A stretch of DNA of 32,402 nucleotides. Origin: an uncultured bacterium. GTDB lineage: Bacteria > Bacteroidota > Bacteroidia > Chitinophagales > CAIOSU01. Position 1 is the stretch's first letter, and every line of letters begins with the position of its first letter. This document shows, piece after piece, positions 1 through 27,923 of this stretch. Where the stretch lies: positions 1 to 32,402 of the forward strand of contig CAIOSU010000476.1 in NCBI GenBank assembly GCA_903861055.1. Reading direction: 5' to 3'. The position numbers were made by a program, and so were the translations under genes. The notes beneath the pieces were generated by a model. The model made no database searches. It saw only the letters and a list, made by a program, of their open reading frames with translations, and had not been told where the DNA came from.

Positions 1-1
1 A

Positions 2-379
2 GAATTTGCTCAGGAAATAGCGGACAACTCGTTCCCGGTTCGTTTTAAGCAGGGGGATGTTATGGTAAAATATAACGACGAAGTGGATTACGTGCCACTA
101 ATTCTTGAAGGGGAAGCAGAAATAAAAACGACTACATCCTCTGCCAAAGAGATAATTGTCTATACGGTAAAACCTGGGGGTTATTGCTCTCTTGTGTTGT
201 TAAATTGCCTTACGGGTACCCCATCGTTGGTAAAGGCAGAATGCACTAAAGATATCTCTGCAGTTATGGTTCCAAAATCGGTTGCGCTAAACTGGCTCTC
301 CAATAACCCTAACTGGCGCAAGCACCTTATGGAAGATGTTTCTATAAAATACAGCACCCTTTTAAGTCAACTCAAGTAA
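2..379 (+). CDS. CRP/FNR-like cyclic-nucleotide-binding domain protein lacking an HTH (5' partial)
   Basis: The reading frame is open from base 2, so the gene starts upstream of the window; the ATG at 62 is internal. The visible 125 or so residues read as the beta-roll of a CRP/FNR effector domain (FKQGDVM, LILEGEAEI, then a VKPGGYCSLVLLNCLTGTPS stretch), followed by a helix (PNWRKHLMEDVSIKYSTLLSQL) that resembles the dimerisation helix. The protein stops right after this helix, where the family normally continues into a winged HTH of about 70 residues. It therefore probably cannot bind DNA by itself and may act as a signal-binding or partner protein. It lies 7 nt upstream of the H-NOX gene on the same strand, so co-transcription is likely. 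The ligand is unknown. The domain identity is fairly sure, the role is inference. Confidence 0.72.
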   Translation, partial: EFAQEIADNSFPVRFKQGDVMVKYNDEVDYVPLILEGEAEIKTTTSSAKEIIVYTVKPGGYCSLVLLNCLTGTPSLVKAECTKDISAVMVPKSVALNWLSNNPNWRKHLMEDVSIKYSTLLSQLK

Positions 380-386
380 TTTATTT

Positions 387-932
387 ATGTTAGGTTTTGT
401 TAACCAGGCCATCAAGGACATGGTGTTAAGCGAATTTGGTTCAGATTCGTGGATGGCCATTTGTGAGGATGTACAATTTTTAGAAAAATCGTTTGCAAGC
501 CAGCAAGATTATCCCGATTTGCTCACTTATCAATTTGTTGGATCAATTTGCAAGTTGAAAAACATGGAGGTAAGTGAGGTGCTTATTGCCTTTGGAGAAT
601 ATTGGGTTTTAAAAACAGCCGCTCCTAAATATGGAATCTTGTTTCGGGCAAGCGGTCAAACTTTTGCTGAGTTTTTAGAGTACTTACCCAATTTCCATAG
701 TAAGGTAATGTTGTTTTATCCAAATATAAATCCCCCTGATTTTCGCGTAGATAAAACAGCAGAAAACCAATATCGGCTTTTTTATTTCTCTCATCGCCAA
801 GGCCTGGATGCCTTTGTAATAGGGCTTTTACAAGGATTGGCAAAGTTTTACGACGAAAAAATCGAGACCTATTTTGGAGCCGTTGGAGAGGAAAAGGCTA
901 ACTGCGTAATCAACATCCAAATTTTAAAATAA
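387..932 (+). CDS. H-NOX (heme NO/O2-binding) sensor protein
   Basis: A stand-alone 181-residue protein of typical H-NOX length. The family hallmarks are visible: proximal heme ligand His104 in NFHSKVMLFYP, the following PPDF turn, and the heme-propionate-binding YxSxR motif at residues 133-137 (YFSHR). The N-terminal distal region begins MLGFVNQAIKDMV, as usual. H-NOX proteins bind NO, and some bind O2, through ferrous heme and pass the signal to a partner kinase or cyclase. The gene is 7 nt after the CRP-like gene and 2 nt before the histidine kinase, the classic hnoX/hnoK pairing. I see no distal-pocket Tyr that would clearly mark an O2 binder, so NO is the more likely ligand, but this is inference. 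Family assignment is secure. Confidence 0.92.
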   Translation: MLGFVNQAIKDMVLSEFGSDSWMAICEDVQFLEKSFASQQDYPDLLTYQFVGSICKLKNMEVSEVLIAFGEYWVLKTAAPKYGILFRASGQTFAEFLEYLPNFHSKVMLFYPNINPPDFRVDKTAENQYRLFYFSHRQGLDAFVIGLLQGLAKFYDEKIETYFGAVGEEKANCVINIQILK

Positions 933-934
933 AA

Positions 935-2206
935 ATGGCCAAAGTTGTTGAACTGCTCAACTTAACAGAGCCTTTTAATGTTTTTTTCGACAAAAGCTTA
1001 AAAATTTTAAGTTTTGGCCCTGCCATGCGAAAGGTGATTGGAGGCAATCAAGAAGGGAAAGAATTCAATGATTTGTTTTCGATAAAAAGGCCAATAACTA
1101 ACAAAGAGGCCAGTTTCGATTGGATACAAAAATCGCTCAGTTTGGTATTTATCCTTGAGTTAAACACCAACATCGAGCTCTGTTTTAAGGGGGAGTTTAA
1201 AGTTTACGAGGATAAACTTTTGTTTGTAGGCTCGCCTTACATAAATGATATTGCCCAGCTTAAAAATTATGGCCTAACTATTTCCGATTTCCCGGTTTCC
1301 GATTCAATCATCGACATTTTATTGTTGAATGACATGGAAAAACAAACCAGTAAGGAAATGAAAGAACTGATAACGGAGCTAATCGGCGTTAACTCGGCAT
1401 TGTCGTTAACTAGATTAGAATTGATTAAGGCTAACCAAGCATTGAACCAACAGTATGAGCGAGAAAAACAATCATATAAAAGTTTAGATGAAACTTTCAA
1501 GGACTTTACATTCTCTGTAAGTCATGATTTAAAAGCTCCGGTTAGGCAAGTATCAATGTTTGTAGAAATTTTCATGGACAGGCTAAAGCAGCTTTCGGTA
1601 GAGGATGACAAGCTTACAAAATTTGCCAACTTCATTTCCCTTAATAGCACAAGGGCTTTAAATATGATAGATGGCTTGTATTCTCTAACCAAATCGACAG
1701 GTAAAAAAATCGAATTAACTACAATCGAAATTGTTCCCTTTCTAGAGGAAATTATTGCATCGCAAAACCCAGATGATAAGTATAATTTTAAAATTGGACA
1801 CGACAGCCAAACTGCCGCTATTAAATCCGACAAGGTATTGTTGGATATAATAATGAGCAACTTAATATCAAACGCTATAAAGTATAGTAAAAACCTTGAC
1901 AACCCAAAGGTTAGCATAAATGTTAGCCAAAAAGAAGATTGCGGGCTAATTATAATAACCGATAATGGCGTTGGATTTAATATGAGTCACGGTAACCAGT
2001 TGTTTAAAATGTTTAGTAGGCTTCACGGGGAAGATAGTTTTGATGGGCTTGGTATTGGCCTAATGAACGTAAAAATGGCCCTGGATAAGTTACAAGGTAC
2101 CATTGAGTTTGAATCTTCTGTAAACAATGGTACTACCTTTACCATAAAGTTGCCTTTCCACTCCAATTATACAGTTTCTCATCAGCAGGAGCTCGTTAAC
2201 TTTTGA
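935..2206 (+). CDS. HNOBA-like histidine kinase, H-NOX partner
   Basis: A soluble 423-residue sensor kinase with no membrane segment. Residues about 8-135 form a PAS-like region containing YGLTISDFPVSDSIIDILLL, which resembles the HNOBA (heme-NO-binding-associated) domain of soluble guanylate cyclases. Residues about 135-185 are a charged helical, coiled-coil-like linker. The HisKA H-box is SHDLKAPVR with phospho-acceptor His197. The HATPase domain shows an N-box (NLISNAIKYSKN, 309-320), G1 (DNGVGF, 343-348), an F-box (LFKMFSRLH) and G2 (GLGIGL, 371-376). It starts 2 nt after the H-NOX stop, so the two are almost certainly translationally coupled and work as one sensor. No response regulator is in the window; it may lie upstream of base 1. 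Kinase identity is certain, HNOBA assignment is by motif recognition. Confidence 0.9.
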   Translation: MAKVVELLNLTEPFNVFFDKSLKILSFGPAMRKVIGGNQEGKEFNDLFSIKRPITNKEASFDWIQKSLSLVFILELNTNIELCFKGEFKVYEDKLLFVGSPYINDIAQLKNYGLTISDFPVSDSIIDILLLNDMEKQTSKEMKELITELIGVNSALSLTRLELIKANQALNQQYEREKQSYKSLDETFKDFTFSVSHDLKAPVRQVSMFVEIFMDRLKQLSVEDDKLTKFANFISLNSTRALNMIDGLYSLTKSTGKKIELTTIEIVPFLEEIIASQNPDDKYNFKIGHDSQTAAIKSDKVLLDIIMSNLISNAIKYSKNLDNPKVSINVSQKEDCGLIIITDNGVGFNMSHGNQLFKMFSRLHGEDSFDGLGIGLMNVKMALDKLQGTIEFESSVNNGTTFTIKLPFHSNYTVSHQQELVNF

Positions 2207-14614: not shown

Positions 14615-16480
14615 TTATGACGACCGGTGACCAACTTGGTGATACGTTTTTACGTGCGGGCCTAAGAATAAGCGTGCATACATACGTATCAATGCCAAGC
14701 CTGAGAAAATAAAGCTCATTGAAACGAACAGGGCCAAGAAAAACTGGTCGATTTGAATGTGGCTATACAGCAAATCTTCGCCCAAGAAAGTAGTGGTAAT
14801 TGGGAAACCTGCCAAGCCCAAGCAGCTTAACAAAAATACTCCCGAAAGTTTCTCATACTCATAACTATGACCATAGAAACCATTAAGGTCGGTGCCTGGC
14901 TCGCGCTTAAGCAAGTAACGCAAACTAACATAACCCACAATTGCAGATACTACCACACCACTTAAGTATATGGCCGTGTGCGAGTAATCGAACAGCTCAT
15001 TGTATAACACTGCCAAGGCTATCCAAAAATGACTGAACACCACTAGCCACCAGCTGTTAACTGGGTTTTTTCGCTCTACAAATGCCCTTAGTATCATCAA
15101 AAAACCAATCATTGCAAAGGTGGTAGGTAGCATACTCAATACCCAAGCTGACAAATATTGTTGGTTGTGGTAAAAGAAAATACCTGCAGCGTAAATGGGT
15201 AATAGGCCCAACGCAATTTTAATGTTGAAAAAGCTAAACAAACGGCCTAATTTTTTAAACGGATTCCAAAGAAAACGGAACATAAAACTATCCAAATGCC
15301 ATTCACGCACACTGAATACATACAGCGAGTATTTTATCTTGGTCAACCAAGCCGGGTCTTGCTTCGGGGTAGATGGCATATAGTTGAAAAACTTCTCGCG
15401 GATGAGGTAAGTAACCACCGATGGAGAAACCAACAACTGGTAGCTTCGCAAAAACGCATTGCTAGCAAAGTGAATTAGGGCCAAGGTTTCGAGCCCTAGA
15501 GCCACCTCGATAAAAATGATACCGATTTGCGCTGCCGACGAATAGGCCACTTGCGACTTGATAGAGGACTGCACCCTGCCTGAGAAAGTGGCGGCTATAC
15601 TAGTAGCTAAACCCAACAGTCCAATTAAAACGCGAATGCCGACCAAATGCTCCCAAAAAGAGAACGTGCGCAGCAGCACAAACACACCTATATGAACCGA
15701 TAAGGAACTGTAAAATATAGCGCTCGATGGGGTAGGCCCCTCCATAGCACGCGGTAACCAAGATGTAAAAGGAAACTGAGCCGATTTCACGGCTGCGCTA
15801 AGCAAAATCATAAACGAGATAAGCACGCTTAGGTACAAATGCTCGTTTAAGGTGTGGTCAACCATGTCGTAGTTGTTCAGCTCAGCAAAGGTGATATTAT
15901 GGTGCCACAAGTGATGGCTCATCCACATAGCCAGTATCATACCAATGTCGCCAAGGCGATAGATGGAGAATACCTTGAAGGCATTTCGCACAGGCAAATA
16001 ACGGTCTCGGTAAAAGGCAATGAGCAAAAACGACGAAACACCGAGAATTTCCCAACCAATAAAAAGCGTCTCGAAATTGCCGGAGAAGATGGTAATGTTG
16101 TAACCCAGATAAAAGAACAAAACCGTATTGAAAAACCTACGATAGCCTTTCTCGCGGTGCAAATAGTATTGGCTATAAGTAGCTATAAGAAACGTAAGTA
16201 TGGCCCCCACCAATAGGTAGGTAGCGGTTACTTTATCAAAGTATAAATCGATAAAAAACTCGTAATGCCCTGATTGGTAAATAGATTGCTCTTTAATATT
16301 GAGCGTAGGGAATTTGGCAATAACCCAATAAACTAAAAAAACCAATGTGCTAAATAGCTGCATGCCGGTGGCAAATACAGCCACCCCAGAAATCAGTTTC
16401 TCGTTTTTTTCGGGTATAAGCAGGCTCGTAACAAAGCCCACAAAAGGTATTATTATGAATAAGGCAAGAATCGTGTCCAT
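14615..16480 (-). CDS. dabB: DabB, NuoL/MrpA-like proton-conducting subunit of the DAB inorganic-carbon transporter
   Basis: 621 residues, multi-pass membrane protein of the NuoL/Mrp antiporter family. Conserved functional residues are visible: Glu144 in FIGWEILGVSSF and Lys232 in KSAQFPFTSWLPRAMEGPTP, both used for proton movement in this family. It is not part of complex I here: no other nuo gene is present and it directly follows dabA with only 8 nt between. This pairing is the DAB (DABs accumulate bicarbonate) signature, in which DabB is thought to supply cation flow that drives DabA-mediated hydration of CO2 to bicarbonate in the cytoplasm. The C-terminus (ARLFLGPHVKTYHQVGHRSS) is soluble. 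Older annotation would call it NADH-quinone oxidoreductase subunit L. Confidence 0.92.
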   Translation of the reverse strand: MDTILALFIIIPFVGFVTSLLIPEKNEKLISGVAVFATGMQLFSTLVFLVYWVIAKFPTLNIKEQSIYQSGHYEFFIDLYFDKVTATYLLVGAILTFLIATYSQYYLHREKGYRRFFNTVLFFYLGYNITIFSGNFETLFIGWEILGVSSFLLIAFYRDRYLPVRNAFKVFSIYRLGDIGMILAMWMSHHLWHHNITFAELNNYDMVDHTLNEHLYLSVLISFMILLSAAVKSAQFPFTSWLPRAMEGPTPSSAIFYSSLSVHIGVFVLLRTFSFWEHLVGIRVLIGLLGLATSIAATFSGRVQSSIKSQVAYSSAAQIGIIFIEVALGLETLALIHFASNAFLRSYQLLVSPSVVTYLIREKFFNYMPSTPKQDPAWLTKIKYSLYVFSVREWHLDSFMFRFLWNPFKKLGRLFSFFNIKIALGLLPIYAAGIFFYHNQQYLSAWVLSMLPTTFAMIGFLMILRAFVERKNPVNSWWLVVFSHFWIALAVLYNELFDYSHTAIYLSGVVVSAIVGYVSLRYLLKREPGTDLNGFYGHSYEYEKLSGVFLLSCLGLAGFPITTTFLGEDLLYSHIQIDQFFLALFVSMSFIFSGLALIRMYARLFLGPHVKTYHQVGHRSS

Positions 16481-16488
16481 GGGTAGGG

Positions 16489-18981
16489 TTATTGAATTTC
16501 GTAAACCGGAAGATTCTCGGAAGTGGTTTCTGCTAGGTCTGTTGCGTCCTTCACAACTTTAAACTCCGTTGCTAATGGCTCGTAAGGCAAAAATTCACCA
16601 TTCCTGAAAACCAAAATTTCTTTGGTATCTGGGTTTTCAACGGCCAACATCACCCAGTTTTTATCAAACCACTCATAAGTGGCGGGGTTGGTTTTAATGG
16701 TGTTCAATACCACTTCGGGGTAGTGCTCTACTATTACCATCAAGCGCAAGGGGTCGTGTACTTCAATCATTTGTAAAGGTAAGCCCGTTCGCAAATCGCC
16801 ATCAAAGCCGTTTGCCACACCAAGAAGGCCCATTACGTTGTGCGGTAGTTTACTTCCCGCACCCAGTTTTTCATTATCGACCCTAGAGAAATAATACTCC
16901 AAATTGATACCTCCACAAACAGGTGCAGCTGCATTGAGTATGCCGAGCAAAAACTTACCGTCAGGGTCTACCCTGTAATCATACGAATTCAAAAAAGCGC
17001 GCCTATCTAAAAACAATTGGCCATTAAGACTCCTGCGGCCAATAATACACAAGGTATTGGTTGCGTGGTTTAGCTCGGGCCGCGGCTCAAACAACGATAC
17101 CGAGCGCAATTTTACCGCTTCGTGCACCTTTTTGGCGCTCAATTCGGTATTAATGCTCATAAACCTACGCGAGCGTTCTTTGGCATTTAAGTCAAGTGCT
17201 TGCTCAAAAACACCTAAGTTTAGTGCATGCAGTTTGGCGTTGGCCGGCGATAGGGTTTGCTCATCATAAAACATTACCTCGTCTCGGGTAGTGTCGTGCA
17301 GAGCGCCTACAAACTCTGTTTCGGTGGGTATAGCTATGCCCCTGGTTACCAAATTTTGCCTAACCATAGAGTGGTTGGCCATAAAGCTAAAAGCTCGTGC
17401 ATTTACCGAGCCTGGCCTGCCAGAGCATGCGCCGCAATCGTACCCGGCATAGTGGGTGTTGTTAACGCTACTGGCACCATGGCCAAACATATATACTAGT
17501 GGAGCGAAGTTGGCTACCAGACCCGTGCTTTTAAGTACCGCTTCTACTCGGTTGGTCATTTCATCAACGGTATAGCCCACTTGTAGCCCATCTTGCATAT
17601 GGCTGGGGCTCTTGTTCTCTATAGTTAGGCTCGAGAGCTTGTCCATGTGCCGAAACGAGTACGTAGTTGCTGGGCTAAGGCTTGGCTTAAATATATTTAC
17701 GCTCAGTTTTAGTGCCGACCAAAAACCCAATGTTTGCGATATAAGAGAGCTACGCAACAAACCATGCGTAGATTTGGAAAAGTGCACATCGCGTTCGGCT
17801 AAGCGCACCGTGCTTACTTCCTTAATAAGATGCTTCGGTTTTACTGGAGCAGGGCATATTTTAGTATGAAACTTGCCATTCTCCGGTTGATAATAGGTGT
17901 CGATGCCAAAAAACCCTGGGGTACCATAAGTAGTGCAGTTATGGTCAATTTGTTCAATATAACGCCTAATGGAACACTCCCTATCATCAATACAAAAGAA
18001 CGCTTGAAATGAAGGTGTGCTGGTTTTGGCATGGCTCTGGTTGCGGTGTTTAATGCCTCCCAGCACTTCGTCATAATAACTCCACTCGTAGGCTGCTTGC
18101 CAAAGGTTCAGCACTTCGTCAAGTTCGGTTAGTGGGCCAGGGTTAAGTACGTCAATTGCGGGCTCTTGCACTACGGTGGCCAGTGGCTGCCACTTTTTGC
18201 CCAAGGTTTGGTCAAGGTTGTCAATCTCAAGCAGCAACTCCAGATGAATTACGTCGGTCAAGGTTATGTTCTTATGTTCAAGCAAAAACTGAGGGTGATC
18301 TTCAACTACACTTACCATACCCGACCAGCCTGGGTGTGCGAATTGTTGATCGATAAGATATTGCTCAAAGTAACTTTCATCGCCTACCAACATTTGCAGT
18401 AGCGCATATATGTTTACACTGTCGTCGAACAAAAGGTTTTTGGCGCGCTTGGTTTTAAAGAAACTGAAGTAAGTGTTCTTTTCTATAGTCCTCAGCGCCG
18501 ATAGCAATCCTCCGTTTTCGACCGGAAAGGTAACCACGGCAATGCCCTGGTCGAGGTAGCTGTTGAGTATACGAAACAGGTTGGTATGCACAATGGTATC
18601 CAAATCGATATGATAATGGCTCTTCCAGTATTTACGCAACCGGCCTGTTAGTTTGCTTATGCTTGCATCATATTCTTGCTCGGTACACTTTTGTATCCAT
18701 TGGACTGCTGCCTGAGTGCCCTTTTCGGAGGTAATTACTCGCTCCAGCAAGGGCTTGCTTATTTTTTGCTCTTGGTATAGCGCCCTGTATTCGGCTAGGT
18801 TAAGTGAGGTTTTGAAACCAAAAATCTTGGAAGCCTTTCTAATGGCCTGCTCAAATGGTTCGTGCTGAAAAGCATGCAAGGTATTGTGGTGTATAAAATC
18901 TTTAAGCGGAGCCTGCTCAGGCAGGTAATGTCTCAATTTGTGGATTGTAACGTCCTCATCGAAACGAAATGAAGTTTTCAT
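16489..18981 (-). CDS. dabA: DabA (DUF2309/YbcC), carbonic-anhydrase-like subunit of the DAB transporter
   Basis: 830 residues, full length for DUF2309. The N-terminal FIHHNTLHAFQ motif is typical. The beta-carbonic-anhydrase-like zinc site is complete: Cys330 and Asp332 in FFCIDDRE, His501 in YMFGHGASS, and Cys516 in YDCGACSGRPG. These align in order and spacing with the Cys351, Asp353, His524, Cys539 set known from Halothiobacillus DabA. DabA is a cytoplasmic, peripheral membrane protein that with DabB hydrates CO2 to bicarbonate using membrane energy. It is first in a two-gene unit. No carboxysome, RuBisCO or separate carbonic anhydrase gene is in the window, so the likely purpose is bicarbonate supply to carboxylases under low CO2 (inference). 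Confidence 0.95.
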   Translation of the reverse strand: MKTSFRFDEDVTIHKLRHYLPEQAPLKDFIHHNTLHAFQHEPFEQAIRKASKIFGFKTSLNLAEYRALYQEQKISKPLLERVITSEKGTQAAVQWIQKCTEQEYDASISKLTGRLRKYWKSHYHIDLDTIVHTNLFRILNSYLDQGIAVVTFPVENGGLLSALRTIEKNTYFSFFKTKRAKNLLFDDSVNIYALLQMLVGDESYFEQYLIDQQFAHPGWSGMVSVVEDHPQFLLEHKNITLTDVIHLELLLEIDNLDQTLGKKWQPLATVVQEPAIDVLNPGPLTELDEVLNLWQAAYEWSYYDEVLGGIKHRNQSHAKTSTPSFQAFFCIDDRECSIRRYIEQIDHNCTTYGTPGFFGIDTYYQPENGKFHTKICPAPVKPKHLIKEVSTVRLAERDVHFSKSTHGLLRSSLISQTLGFWSALKLSVNIFKPSLSPATTYSFRHMDKLSSLTIENKSPSHMQDGLQVGYTVDEMTNRVEAVLKSTGLVANFAPLVYMFGHGASSVNNTHYAGYDCGACSGRPGSVNARAFSFMANHSMVRQNLVTRGIAIPTETEFVGALHDTTRDEVMFYDEQTLSPANAKLHALNLGVFEQALDLNAKERSRRFMSINTELSAKKVHEAVKLRSVSLFEPRPELNHATNTLCIIGRRSLNGQLFLDRRAFLNSYDYRVDPDGKFLLGILNAAAPVCGGINLEYYFSRVDNEKLGAGSKLPHNVMGLLGVANGFDGDLRTGLPLQMIEVHDPLRLMVIVEHYPEVVLNTIKTNPATYEWFDKNWVMLAVENPDTKEILVFRNGEFLPYEPLATEFKVVKDATDLAETTSENLPVYEIQ

Positions 18982-25457: not shown

Positions 25458-26795
25458 TTATATTTTCCCCGCTCTAGCGAGCTCCAAGAACTCCCTAACG
25501 GAGCTGTAGGATACTACATTTTTGATGAAATAGATTTTGGCTTTTTCTACTTCGGCTTCGCTGGCATGCATGGTTTTTAGGATGTTGAGCAAATGCATTT
25601 TCATGTGCCCTTTCTGTATACCAACCGTTACTAAAGAGCGAATGGCCGAAAAATTGTTGGCCAAGCCCACCGCAGCTGCAATCTGCATTAACTCATTGGC
25701 ACTGGGGTTGCCCAACATTTCCATGCCGCGCTTTACAAGGGGATGCAGGGTAGTTAAACCACCTACAGTACCTAATGCCAAAGGCACTTCTAGGGTATAT
25801 TTAAAATGGCCCTTCTCTAAATCCTCTAGGCTAATGCTGGTAAGGCTGCTATAACGCCCATTGCGCGATGCATAGGTATGCCCGCAAGCCTCGGTGGCCC
25901 TAAAATCGTTGCCAGAAGCTAGTATCACAGAATCAATGCCATTGAAAATACCTTTATTGTGCGTCGTGGCCCGGTAAGTATCAACTTGTGCTACCCTTAC
26001 ACCACGCGCAAAGCGCCAAGCAAAAGTTTGGGCATCCATGGTGCCATCATCAAAACTGCCAAGTGCTTCCACAGGGCACTCAACCCAAGCACGCACAATG
26101 CAATTGGGTGTGTAATTGCTCAGTATCGACATAATTACCTCAATATCCTTCTCGCTACCTTCAAAGCCATCATAAATGCTGGCCTCACGGCGCAAAGTAG
26201 CCGCAAAACTCTCCAGCACCGAGTTGATGAAGTTGGCACCCATAGAGTCGCAGGTATCAAATAGCCCCTTCAACTGAAAGTAATTAGCCTCATAGGCAGT
26301 CATGTCAATCAACTGTATATCCAGTATACCGCCGCCACGCGCCTCCATGCGGCCGGTAAGGTGGGTTGCATCGGCTTTCAGTATGGGTTTTAAGTGATTG
26401 AAAAAAGCCAACAAGCGGCGCTTTTCGCCACGCCATATAAAATGTACCTGTCCTACCTTCTCCATAGCCAATACTCGGGCATGAAAACCGCCACGGCTGC
26501 GCCAAAACTTAGCACTGTTGCTGGCTGCTGCCACCACAGAGCTTTCCTCAATCACCATTGGCACGGTGTAAATTTTATCGTTTATGAGCGTGTTGGGCAT
26601 TACACCAAACGGCATATAGAAATTGGTAATGGTATTTTCCGAAAACTCATCAAACAGCTTTTGGGTATCGGGTTTATTGTGCCAATAGCTCTCAAACTCG
26701 CTCTTTACCTGGGCGCTATCCTCAAAGTAGTTGTCGGCTACCCAGTCAAGCTTACCCTGTTTGGTCAGTTTCGAAAATCCTTCTATTTCTTTCAT
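25458..26795 (-). CDS. HMG-CoA reductase, class II
   Basis: 445 residues. Class II features are clear: FYMPFGVMPNTLINDKIYTV, catalytic Glu83 in VIEESSVVAAASN, Lys281 in THNKGIFNGID, the ASGNDFRA Asp297 and the late His397 in GIQKGHMKMH, with CDSMGANFINSVLE and a GTVGGLTTLHP block. The enzyme interconverts HMG-CoA and mevalonate using NAD(P)H. Class II enzymes are often labelled degradative, but beside an IPP isomerase the biosynthetic direction (mevalonate pathway) is the better reading. It is 84 nt downstream of the fni gene on the same strand, with repeats in between. Confidence 0.94.
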   Translation of the reverse strand: MKEIEGFSKLTKQGKLDWVADNYFEDSAQVKSEFESYWHNKPDTQKLFDEFSENTITNFYMPFGVMPNTLINDKIYTVPMVIEESSVVAAASNSAKFWRSRGGFHARVLAMEKVGQVHFIWRGEKRRLLAFFNHLKPILKADATHLTGRMEARGGGILDIQLIDMTAYEANYFQLKGLFDTCDSMGANFINSVLESFAATLRREASIYDGFEGSEKDIEVIMSILSNYTPNCIVRAWVECPVEALGSFDDGTMDAQTFAWRFARGVRVAQVDTYRATTHNKGIFNGIDSVILASGNDFRATEACGHTYASRNGRYSSLTSISLEDLEKGHFKYTLEVPLALGTVGGLTTLHPLVKRGMEMLGNPSANELMQIAAAVGLANNFSAIRSLVTVGIQKGHMKMHLLNILKTMHASEAEVEKAKIYFIKNVVSYSSVREFLELARAGKI

Positions 26796-26796
26796 T

Positions 26797-26877
26797 GGAA
26801 CCGCTGATTAATGTTGATTACCCTGATGGCGCAGATTTTTTACTTTTTTAAATCGTACCTCGTAAATCGTACCTCAA
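26797..26877. repeat. Dispersed-type micro-repeats between fni and the HMG-CoA reductase gene
   Basis: Two different repeat words fill the 84-nt spacer. GGAACCGCTGATTAATGTTGATTACCCTGATGGCGCAGATTTTTT resembles the CTGATTAACGCAGATT family I recall from bacterial spacers. Next to it a 14-nt unit AAATCGTACCTCNN occurs twice in tandem (26850-26863, 26864-26877). Confidence 0.5.
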
Positions 26878-26879
26878 AA

Positions 26880-27923
26880 TTATCTAACCTTCAAAAAGGC
26901 TTCGGCTACTTTAAGGCCCTCTACTTGGTATTTTACAAACTCTTGCAAGGCCGCATAGTCTCCTTGTGCGTGTTTCAAAAATGCCGAACCTTGCCCATAA
27001 ACGCTATTGCAGCGCAACTTGTGCATTAGCCAGTACCCATCTAAGTAAGTACCTACTCCTCCCGAAATGATGCACTCGCGCACTTGAGCCTTCTCGCCCA
27101 ATATTGCTATTAGTCCATTAACTAGGTCTACCATCTCTTCTGCAGTATGGCCAACATGGGCCAATTGCCCAAATACTTGTTGCTTTTGCTCGCTATCGCG
27201 CAGTAGCTCCAACCTTGAAAAGTTGGTACCACCGTGCGCCGCAAAATCAATAGCTGCCAATGGTAGTTGCAGCAATGCTTTCAAGCTATCGGGACCCATG
27301 CCTTGCCCCACTTCCTTTACGATTATTTTAACGCCCAACTCTAAGCACTGTTGTATAGTATCAATAGGTGGTTTTATTATAGCATCGCCCTCGGGTTGCA
27401 GCCACTCTTGCAGCGGATTTACGTGTATAAACAGGCCATCGGCACGCAACTTGTGCACCATGGCCTGTATCTTCTCTCCTTGGCCTTTTGCCAGTAATTG
27501 CTCTACCTGCGCTATGCCCAAGTTGGCGTAAAACGGCTGGCTATTGCCAATAATGGGGCGGAGGTTGAAGTCTTCGAAAAACTCATCGCTATCCAACAAC
27601 GCCCTGCACGAACCCAAGCCCATGCCCAAACCAAACTCTGCACAAGCTTGCGCCAAATTTCGGTTTATGGTACCTGCCATGGCTGTGCCGCCCGTCATGC
27701 TGCTTATCCATATTGGGGCGCGCAAGGTTTTACCCAAAAACTGCCTTTCTTTAAGCTGCTTCGGATGGGCGGCCATTAATGGTTCGTAATAAAACCGGTG
27801 GTCTATTTCTTCGCCGGGCACTCGACTCTGCAAGGCCAGTTCAATATGGTCTTGTTTCCGCTGCACGGCGGTTGGATCGTTTATCAACGAAGAAGCCGAT
27901 GTAATATCTTCTGATGGAGTCAT
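26880..27923 (-). CDS. fni: Isopentenyl-diphosphate delta-isomerase, type 2 (FMN-dependent)
   Basis: 347 residues. Diagnostic parts are RKQDHIELAL (residues 22-31), WISSMTGGT (FMN-binding, 72-80), LFIHVNPLQEWLQPEGD (164-180), IVKEVGQGMG (201-210), AAHGGTNFSRLE and SGGVGTYLDGY. It interconverts IPP and DMAPP using reduced FMN and Mg2+. Together with the adjacent HMG-CoA reductase it indicates the mevalonate route to isoprenoids (menaquinone, bactoprenol, carotenoids). The nearest upstream gene on the strand is 121 nt away. Confidence 0.95.
   Translation of the reverse strand: MTPSEDITSASSLINDPTAVQRKQDHIELALQSRVPGEEIDHRFYYEPLMAAHPKQLKERQFLGKTLRAPIWISSMTGGTAMAGTINRNLAQACAEFGLGMGLGSCRALLDSDEFFEDFNLRPIIGNSQPFYANLGIAQVEQLLAKGQGEKIQAMVHKLRADGLFIHVNPLQEWLQPEGDAIIKPPIDTIQQCLELGVKIIVKEVGQGMGPDSLKALLQLPLAAIDFAAHGGTNFSRLELLRDSEQKQQVFGQLAHVGHTAEEMVDLVNGLIAILGEKAQVRECIISGGVGTYLDGYWLMHKLRCNSVYGQGSAFLKHAQGDYAALQEFVKYQVEGLKVAEAFLKVR

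Follow-up and report, generated by a model that had tools for sequence, protein, structure and literature searches.

Genes and Features of the Locus

The window, which is the whole 32,402-nucleotide stretch of DNA analyzed here, starts at a contig end of a 3.38-Mb, 533-contig genome, and its closest relatives with a name are Chitinophagales-like Bacteroidota. Its first part encodes the end of a Crp-like protein, a stand-alone H-NOX protein and a soluble histidine kinase with an HNOBA domain at its N terminus, and the features of these genes are as follows (counts refer to H-NOX proteins that are paired with an HNOBA kinase).

2 to 379, + strand: Crp-like cyclic-nucleotide-binding-fold protein, 3′ part of the gene, no HTH (PF00027, 38.2 bits)
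387 to 932, + strand: H-NOX haem sensor protein, 181 aa (PF07700, E = 8.1e-43)
603 to 605, + strand: H-NOX Trp73, distal pocket (W in 123 of 125)
696 to 698, + strand: H-NOX His104, proximal haem ligand, codon CAT (invariant, 125 of 125)
783 to 797, + strand: H-NOX haem-propionate motif Y133-x-S135-x-R137 (Y in 124, S in 120 and R in 122 of 125)
813 to 815, + strand: H-NOX Phe143, distal position, equivalent to Alr2278 Met144 by alignment (F in 99 and M in 20 of 125)
935 to 2206, + strand: soluble histidine kinase, 423 aa, with HNOBA (PAS), linker, coiled coil, DHp and HATPase
935 to 1273, + strand: kinase HNOBA/PAS domain, residues 1 to 113 (PF07701, E = 1.7e-19; AF2 pLDDT 89.5; Foldseek)
1274 to 1342, + strand: PAS-CC linker motif GLTISDFPVSDSIIDILLLNDME, residues 114 to 136 (HMMER alignment to 6jt0_A, 6jt0_B and 6pas_A)
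1304 to 1477, + strand: signaling-helix coiled coil, residues 124 to 181 in the model (AF2 helix 124 to 181)
1523 to 1525, + strand: His197, predicted phospho-acceptor (SHDLKAP), codon CAT (invariant in the kinase alignment)
1829 to 2158, + strand: HATPase_c catalytic domain, residues 299 to 408, with N, G1, F and G2 boxes (PF02518, E = 2.5e-21)

The initial annotation had described an H-NOX gene followed after 2 nt by a kinase gene, and the ORFs at 387 to 932 and 935 to 2206, which lie on the same strand, agree with it. The H-NOX protein matches PF07700 over the whole domain (146.6 bits, profile positions 2 to 160 of 163) and is the single HNOB protein of the genome; its nearest solved structures are those of Nostoc Alr2278 (E ∼1e-33). 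H104, Y133, S135 and R137 are all present, so that the haem ligand and YxSxR motif are indeed intact, as had been claimed from the letters alone. According to the work of Boon and Marletta, O2-binding homologs reportedly carry a tyrosine at the distal position. Because this position is Phe143 in the window protein, and not a tyrosine, its pocket is expected to bind NO selectively. The protein departs from family-conserved residues at L2, M12, F50, Y99, K106 and I114, all departures that are common to the sister species, and it forms a long branch in the H-NOX tree, where its exact placement is unsure.

The Kinase N Terminus Is an HNOBA Domain with the sGC Linker

Our analyses revealed that the kinase N terminus is a true HNOBA domain, PAS part included. 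PF07701 matches it with 70.6 bits against a cut-off of 23.4, in two stretches that together cover approximately residues 13 to 145 (profile positions 13 to 78 and 111 to 179), and the kinase is the sole HNOBA match that a profile search found in the genome. Weak PF07701 matches in Bacteroidota that span no more than profile positions ∼165 to 216 are mostly generic coiled coil. The AF2 model, obtained from window residues 1 to 182 together with 39 relatives, shows a PAS fold and, after it, a long helix, and all 23 Foldseek matches with E < 0.001 are soluble guanylate cyclase (sGC) subunits or the PAS domain of the Nostoc HNOBA kinase. The HNOBA signature that the initial annotation had read here, and had made dependent on a profile search, is borne out by this significant match.

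The remainder of the kinase has the predicted phospho-acceptor histidine as well as intact N, G1 and G2 boxes. HisKA scored below the Pfam cut-off (18.3 vs. 26.9 bits), and no transmembrane segment was noted by inspection. The C terminus is HATPase_c and not a cyclase catalytic domain, which places the protein outside the soluble guanylate cyclases.

The SDFPVSDSIIDILLL motif aligns with residues 398 to 420 of human sGC α1 and with β1, and the longer HMMER alignments place kinase residues 9 to 136 on human sGC α1 283 to 420 and residues 13 to 145 on sGC β1 218 to 369. In sGC, the PAS-CC linker contacts the β H-NOX domain (PMC6839917). Since kinase residues 114 to 136 fall on α1 398 to 420, the motif is a homolog of this H-NOX-contacting linker, and the proposal that the kinase has retained it holds. 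Linker residues D118, F119, D123 and D127 are 84 to 91% conserved in 125 paired kinases, with the motif overall ∼80 to 90% conserved; six HNOBA kinases without an adjacent H-NOX give a mixed picture, with the linker kept in three and degraded or missing in three. The AF2 model superimposes on the NO-activated β chain, 6jt2_B, with 5.7 Å and on the inactive 6jt0_B with 16.9 Å, a better fit that probably arises because the model helix is straight and from which we draw no mechanism.

H-NOX/HNOBA-Kinase Pairs Form a Widespread Lineage

GTDB genomes were scanned with an H-NOX alignment; this gave 302 relatives, and the analysis used the best 80. Partner presence was not used in finding the loci; partners were detected with a model built from Bacteroidota HNOBA domains, with HNOBA confirmed by Pfam in the 15 relatives examined. 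An HNOBA-kinase ORF lies directly downstream in 79 of these best 80 of the 302 relatives, the last being cut by a contig end. Of 151 distinct H-NOX proteins in a merged set, 128 score 140 bits or more against the family model, a group that lies close to the window by construction because the query was built from paired H-NOX proteins; 125 of these 128 adjoin an HNOBA kinase. The other three have no downstream sequence, or only ∼600 nt of stored sequence. Among the lower-scoring H-NOX proteins, which belong to another lineage, none of 23 has an adjacent HNOBA kinase. The pair spans Bacteroidota, Verrucomicrobiota, Planctomycetota, Acidobacteriota and others.

When 76 H-NOX proteins were placed in a maximum-likelihood tree, a single branch (99% SH-aLRT) set the HNOBA-partnered ones apart from the rest, with partner type changing once on the tree compared to 20 times in shuffles. 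Nostoc Alr2278 was unlabeled in this tree, and the five rows closest to it by path all have an HNOBA partner. The H-NOX/HNOBA-kinase pairing is real, widespread and of an already known type, and the window pair is not exceptional. The HNOBA domain on the kinase, which the initial annotation had singled out, is not new: it is found in the Nostoc structures 2p04 and 2p08, and such partners accompany nearly every H-NOX of the lineage.

Of six genomes that contain an HNOBA kinase without an adjacent H-NOX, five gave no H-NOX gene in the family search. HNOBA is thus retained in several genomes that yielded no H-NOX, from which it follows that the domain can work without H-NOX. Three HNOBA-kinase loci for which no H-NOX was found in the genome are from the Flavobacterium group (L084, L086 and L089, in genomes G209, G379 and G256, respectively); L086 and L089 keep the order receiver, HNOBA kinase, FIST-like gene, which looks like sensor loss. 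At three further loci (L143, L171 and L104), a second H-NOX of the other lineage lies near an HNOBA-type pair, and in L171 a kinase with an HnoK-like N terminus stands beside these genes, suggesting side-by-side dual H-NOX systems.

Operon Context

The window locus combines a minimal kinase with an unusual operon partner. The Crp-like gene ends 7 nt before the H-NOX gene and is truncated by the start of the contig at base 1. Its 5′ part lies on another contig of the same genome (C385; L244, G000:C385), which overlaps window positions 1 to 59 exactly, in reverse complement, over 59 nt. Upstream of base 1 are thus the rest of the Crp-like gene, a gene for a DUF2834 protein and a divergent gene for a collagen-like-repeat protein; the sister genome shows the same upstream gene order, and in the sister species the Crp-like gene is complete (∼145 aa). 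Among the loci examined, only three congeners carry a stand-alone, HTH-less Crp-like domain beside H-NOX. The third of them (G004; L076, 8924 to 9860) has many frameshifts in its H-NOX and Crp-like genes and an intact kinase, reflecting either assembly error or decay.

The initial annotation had expected a response regulator upstream of base 1. Joining contig C385 shows that it is absent there: no response regulator was found in the ∼3-kb upstream contig, nor among the next downstream genes scanned. In relatives, a response regulator often lies directly upstream (45 of 82 upstream ORFs are REC-like by a simple motif), as a single receiver of ∼137 aa in Flavobacterium and as a REC-AAA-HTH protein of ∼450 aa elsewhere.

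Other genes of the window were recorded in passing. Convergent with the kinase is a gene for an NnrU/PEMT-like membrane methyltransferase-family protein (2306 to 2914, − strand; PF07298, 31.5 bits; DUF1295, 36.3), with a complete copy in the sister species and a second, partial one in L075. By inspection, a gene pair at 14615 to 18981 (− strand) resembles DabB/DabA (NDH5-like and DUF2309-type), possibly for inorganic-carbon accumulation, and adjacent genes at 25458 to 27923 (− strand) resemble those for HMG-CoA reductase and type 2 isopentenyl-diphosphate isomerase, of mevalonate-type isoprenoid synthesis.

A Putative Nitric-Oxide Two-Component Sensor

The studied H-NOX/kinase systems are taken to have HnoK/HqsK-type kinases without HNOBA. 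In most of them, autophosphorylation is inhibited by NO-bound H-NOX (PMC12329717), and regulation in known H-NOX/kinase pairs occurs in trans (PMC12329717, PMC8196705). We propose that the window pair works as a bacterial two-component sensor for nitric oxide, of the HNOBA type, a reading to which we assign a probability of roughly 75%. In this mechanism, the stand-alone H-NOX would bind haem and, judging by its pocket, NO rather than O2, so that the haem protein probably senses nitric oxide. On the soluble kinase dimer, it would dock in trans at the HNOBA PAS domain and the PAS-CC linker. Bound NO would break the Fe–His104 bond and shift the proximal side of H-NOX, and the linker and coiled coil would relay this shift to the DHp helices, altering autophosphorylation of His197. 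The phosphate would then be transferred to a response regulator encoded elsewhere. The domains and motifs, the conservation of the pair, the tree split, the linker alignment, the upstream response regulators of relatives and the trans regulation of known pairs count in favor of this reading; the lack of coevolution enrichment, the pose of a fusion model, the H-NOX-less HNOBA kinases, the Caulobacter H-NOX, whose kinase is not controlled through NO (PMC12329717), the copper nitrite reductase not found in the genome and the long branch of the window H-NOX count against it. The initial annotation had also held that the output changed from cyclase to histidine phosphorylation, but nothing here supports a direction of change.

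Docking through the same surface as in sGC is plausible by homology and conservation. Of the earlier proposal that this surface was kept, the part that stands is the conservation of the linker; paired coevolution and a fusion model, both weak tests, did not reproduce the sGC interface. In mean-field DCA on 123 pairs (Neff 94, underpowered), the inactive-state interface defined from sGC contained none of the top 40 couplings, compared to 1.9 expected, and one top-10 pair (H-NOX A37–kinase E141) fell in the active-state block. The fusion model was built from an in-frame, stop-read-through H-NOX/kinase fusion of a Chitinophagaceae relative (pLDDT 85, pTM 0.54). It matched sGC β domain by domain, with root mean square deviations of 24 to 29 Å, and the sGC docking pose was not reproduced in this single-chain read-through model of a relative; contacts across the dimer could not appear in it because the model is one chain.

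These results bear on an alternative in which HNOBA is a dimerization PAS only, H-NOX acts directly on the kinase core and docking of the sGC kind is wrong. The PAS domains of sGC and 2p04 are dimerization modules (PMC8196705), HNOBA kinases without H-NOX exist and the docking block gave no coevolution signal, all of which would fit. However, a domain serving dimerization alone would sit poorly with HNOBA being present on 125 of 128 partners of one lineage and 0 of 23 of the other, and with a linker so well conserved in paired kinases and degraded or lost in half of the six H-NOX-less ones, and we consider this reading unlikely. More improbable still is that the pair senses redox state or haem availability, with H-NOX acting through haem occupancy or cysteine oxidation and not NO. 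There is precedent in the Caulobacter H-NOX, an exception that controls its kinase through cysteine oxidation and not NO (PMC12329717), and a Cu-type nitrite reductase was not found in the window's genome. Against it, the haem ligand and propionate motif are conserved, and the window H-NOX has cysteines only at 26, 55 and 173, with the zinc-cysteine motif absent by inspection. No paired H-NOX matched a zinc-like C-terminal pattern either, but neither did the comparison set and there was no positive control; being absent from all sequences, the pattern is uninformative between the lineages.

A further possibility would add to the NO-sensor reading and not replace it, namely that the upstream Crp-like domain binds the kinase or H-NOX as a second input. 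The gene's close spacing to H-NOX, its retention beside the pair in all three congeners where it occurs and a product that ends without an HTH are consistent with this, as is an arrangement seen in no other locus examined. The idea is a tentative and rather doubtful one, given that the congeneric genomes number only three, one with many frameshifts, and that canonical cyclic-nucleotide phosphate-binding residues are not obvious by inspection. The fuller version, a two-input NO kinase in which the HTH-less Crp-like domain and H-NOX both dock on a minimal HNOBA kinase without an adjacent response regulator, is quite unlikely; if true, it would rank among the smallest split counterparts of the sGC regulatory relay in bacteria, plus a second sensor.

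Comparison with Known Systems

Iyer et al. (2003) are said to have named HNOBA for its association with HNOB, and the domain is reportedly known on bacterial signaling proteins. It is also listed in PMC1592074, and the structure of a Nostoc HNOBA kinase was crystallized in 2007–2008 (PMC8196705, PMC2828450). This Nostoc punctiforme HNOBA/PAS kinase (PDB 2p04 and 2p08; Npun02000820) has the same HNOBA at its N terminus, with 1.5 to 1.7 Å over 98 to 100 columns and 31% identity to the window model. The window kinase consists of HNOBA, coiled coil, DHp and HATPase only, and the Nostoc kinase was compared by its HNOBA domain alone. A literature search to which most subscription papers lay outside found no functional or biochemical study of an HNOBA kinase with its H-NOX.

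The HnoK-type pairs of Shewanella, Vibrio and Bacteroidota (for example, L093) also consist of a stand-alone H-NOX beside a histidine kinase, but their partners lack HNOBA in the loci examined and their H-NOX proteins fall in a separate lineage. The window pair, with an HNOBA domain and an H-NOX of the other lineage, is not of this type, and the H-NOX/HNOBA-kinase pairs form one lineage apart from it. The same H-NOX/HNOBA pair occurs in a Flavobacterium operon (for example, L080 and L085) with the order REC, H-NOX, HNOBA-PAS kinase, FIST protein, kinase, HPt-like protein, regulator; the window has none of that operon's additional PAS domains, nor its FIST gene or neighboring response regulator. 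Because it has 423 aa and no extra domains and is among the smaller ones found, the window kinase is a practical test object.

In animal sGC (β1 and α1), the H-NOX, HNOBA/PAS, PAS-CC linker and coiled coil are homologous to those of the window operon and follow in the same order along it. The window system differs in that H-NOX is a separate protein, the output is a histidine kinase and not a cyclase, and the kinase is presumably a homodimer. With such a split soluble system, the question of how H-NOX acts on the PAS-CC linker and coiled coil in sGC could be tested in trans.
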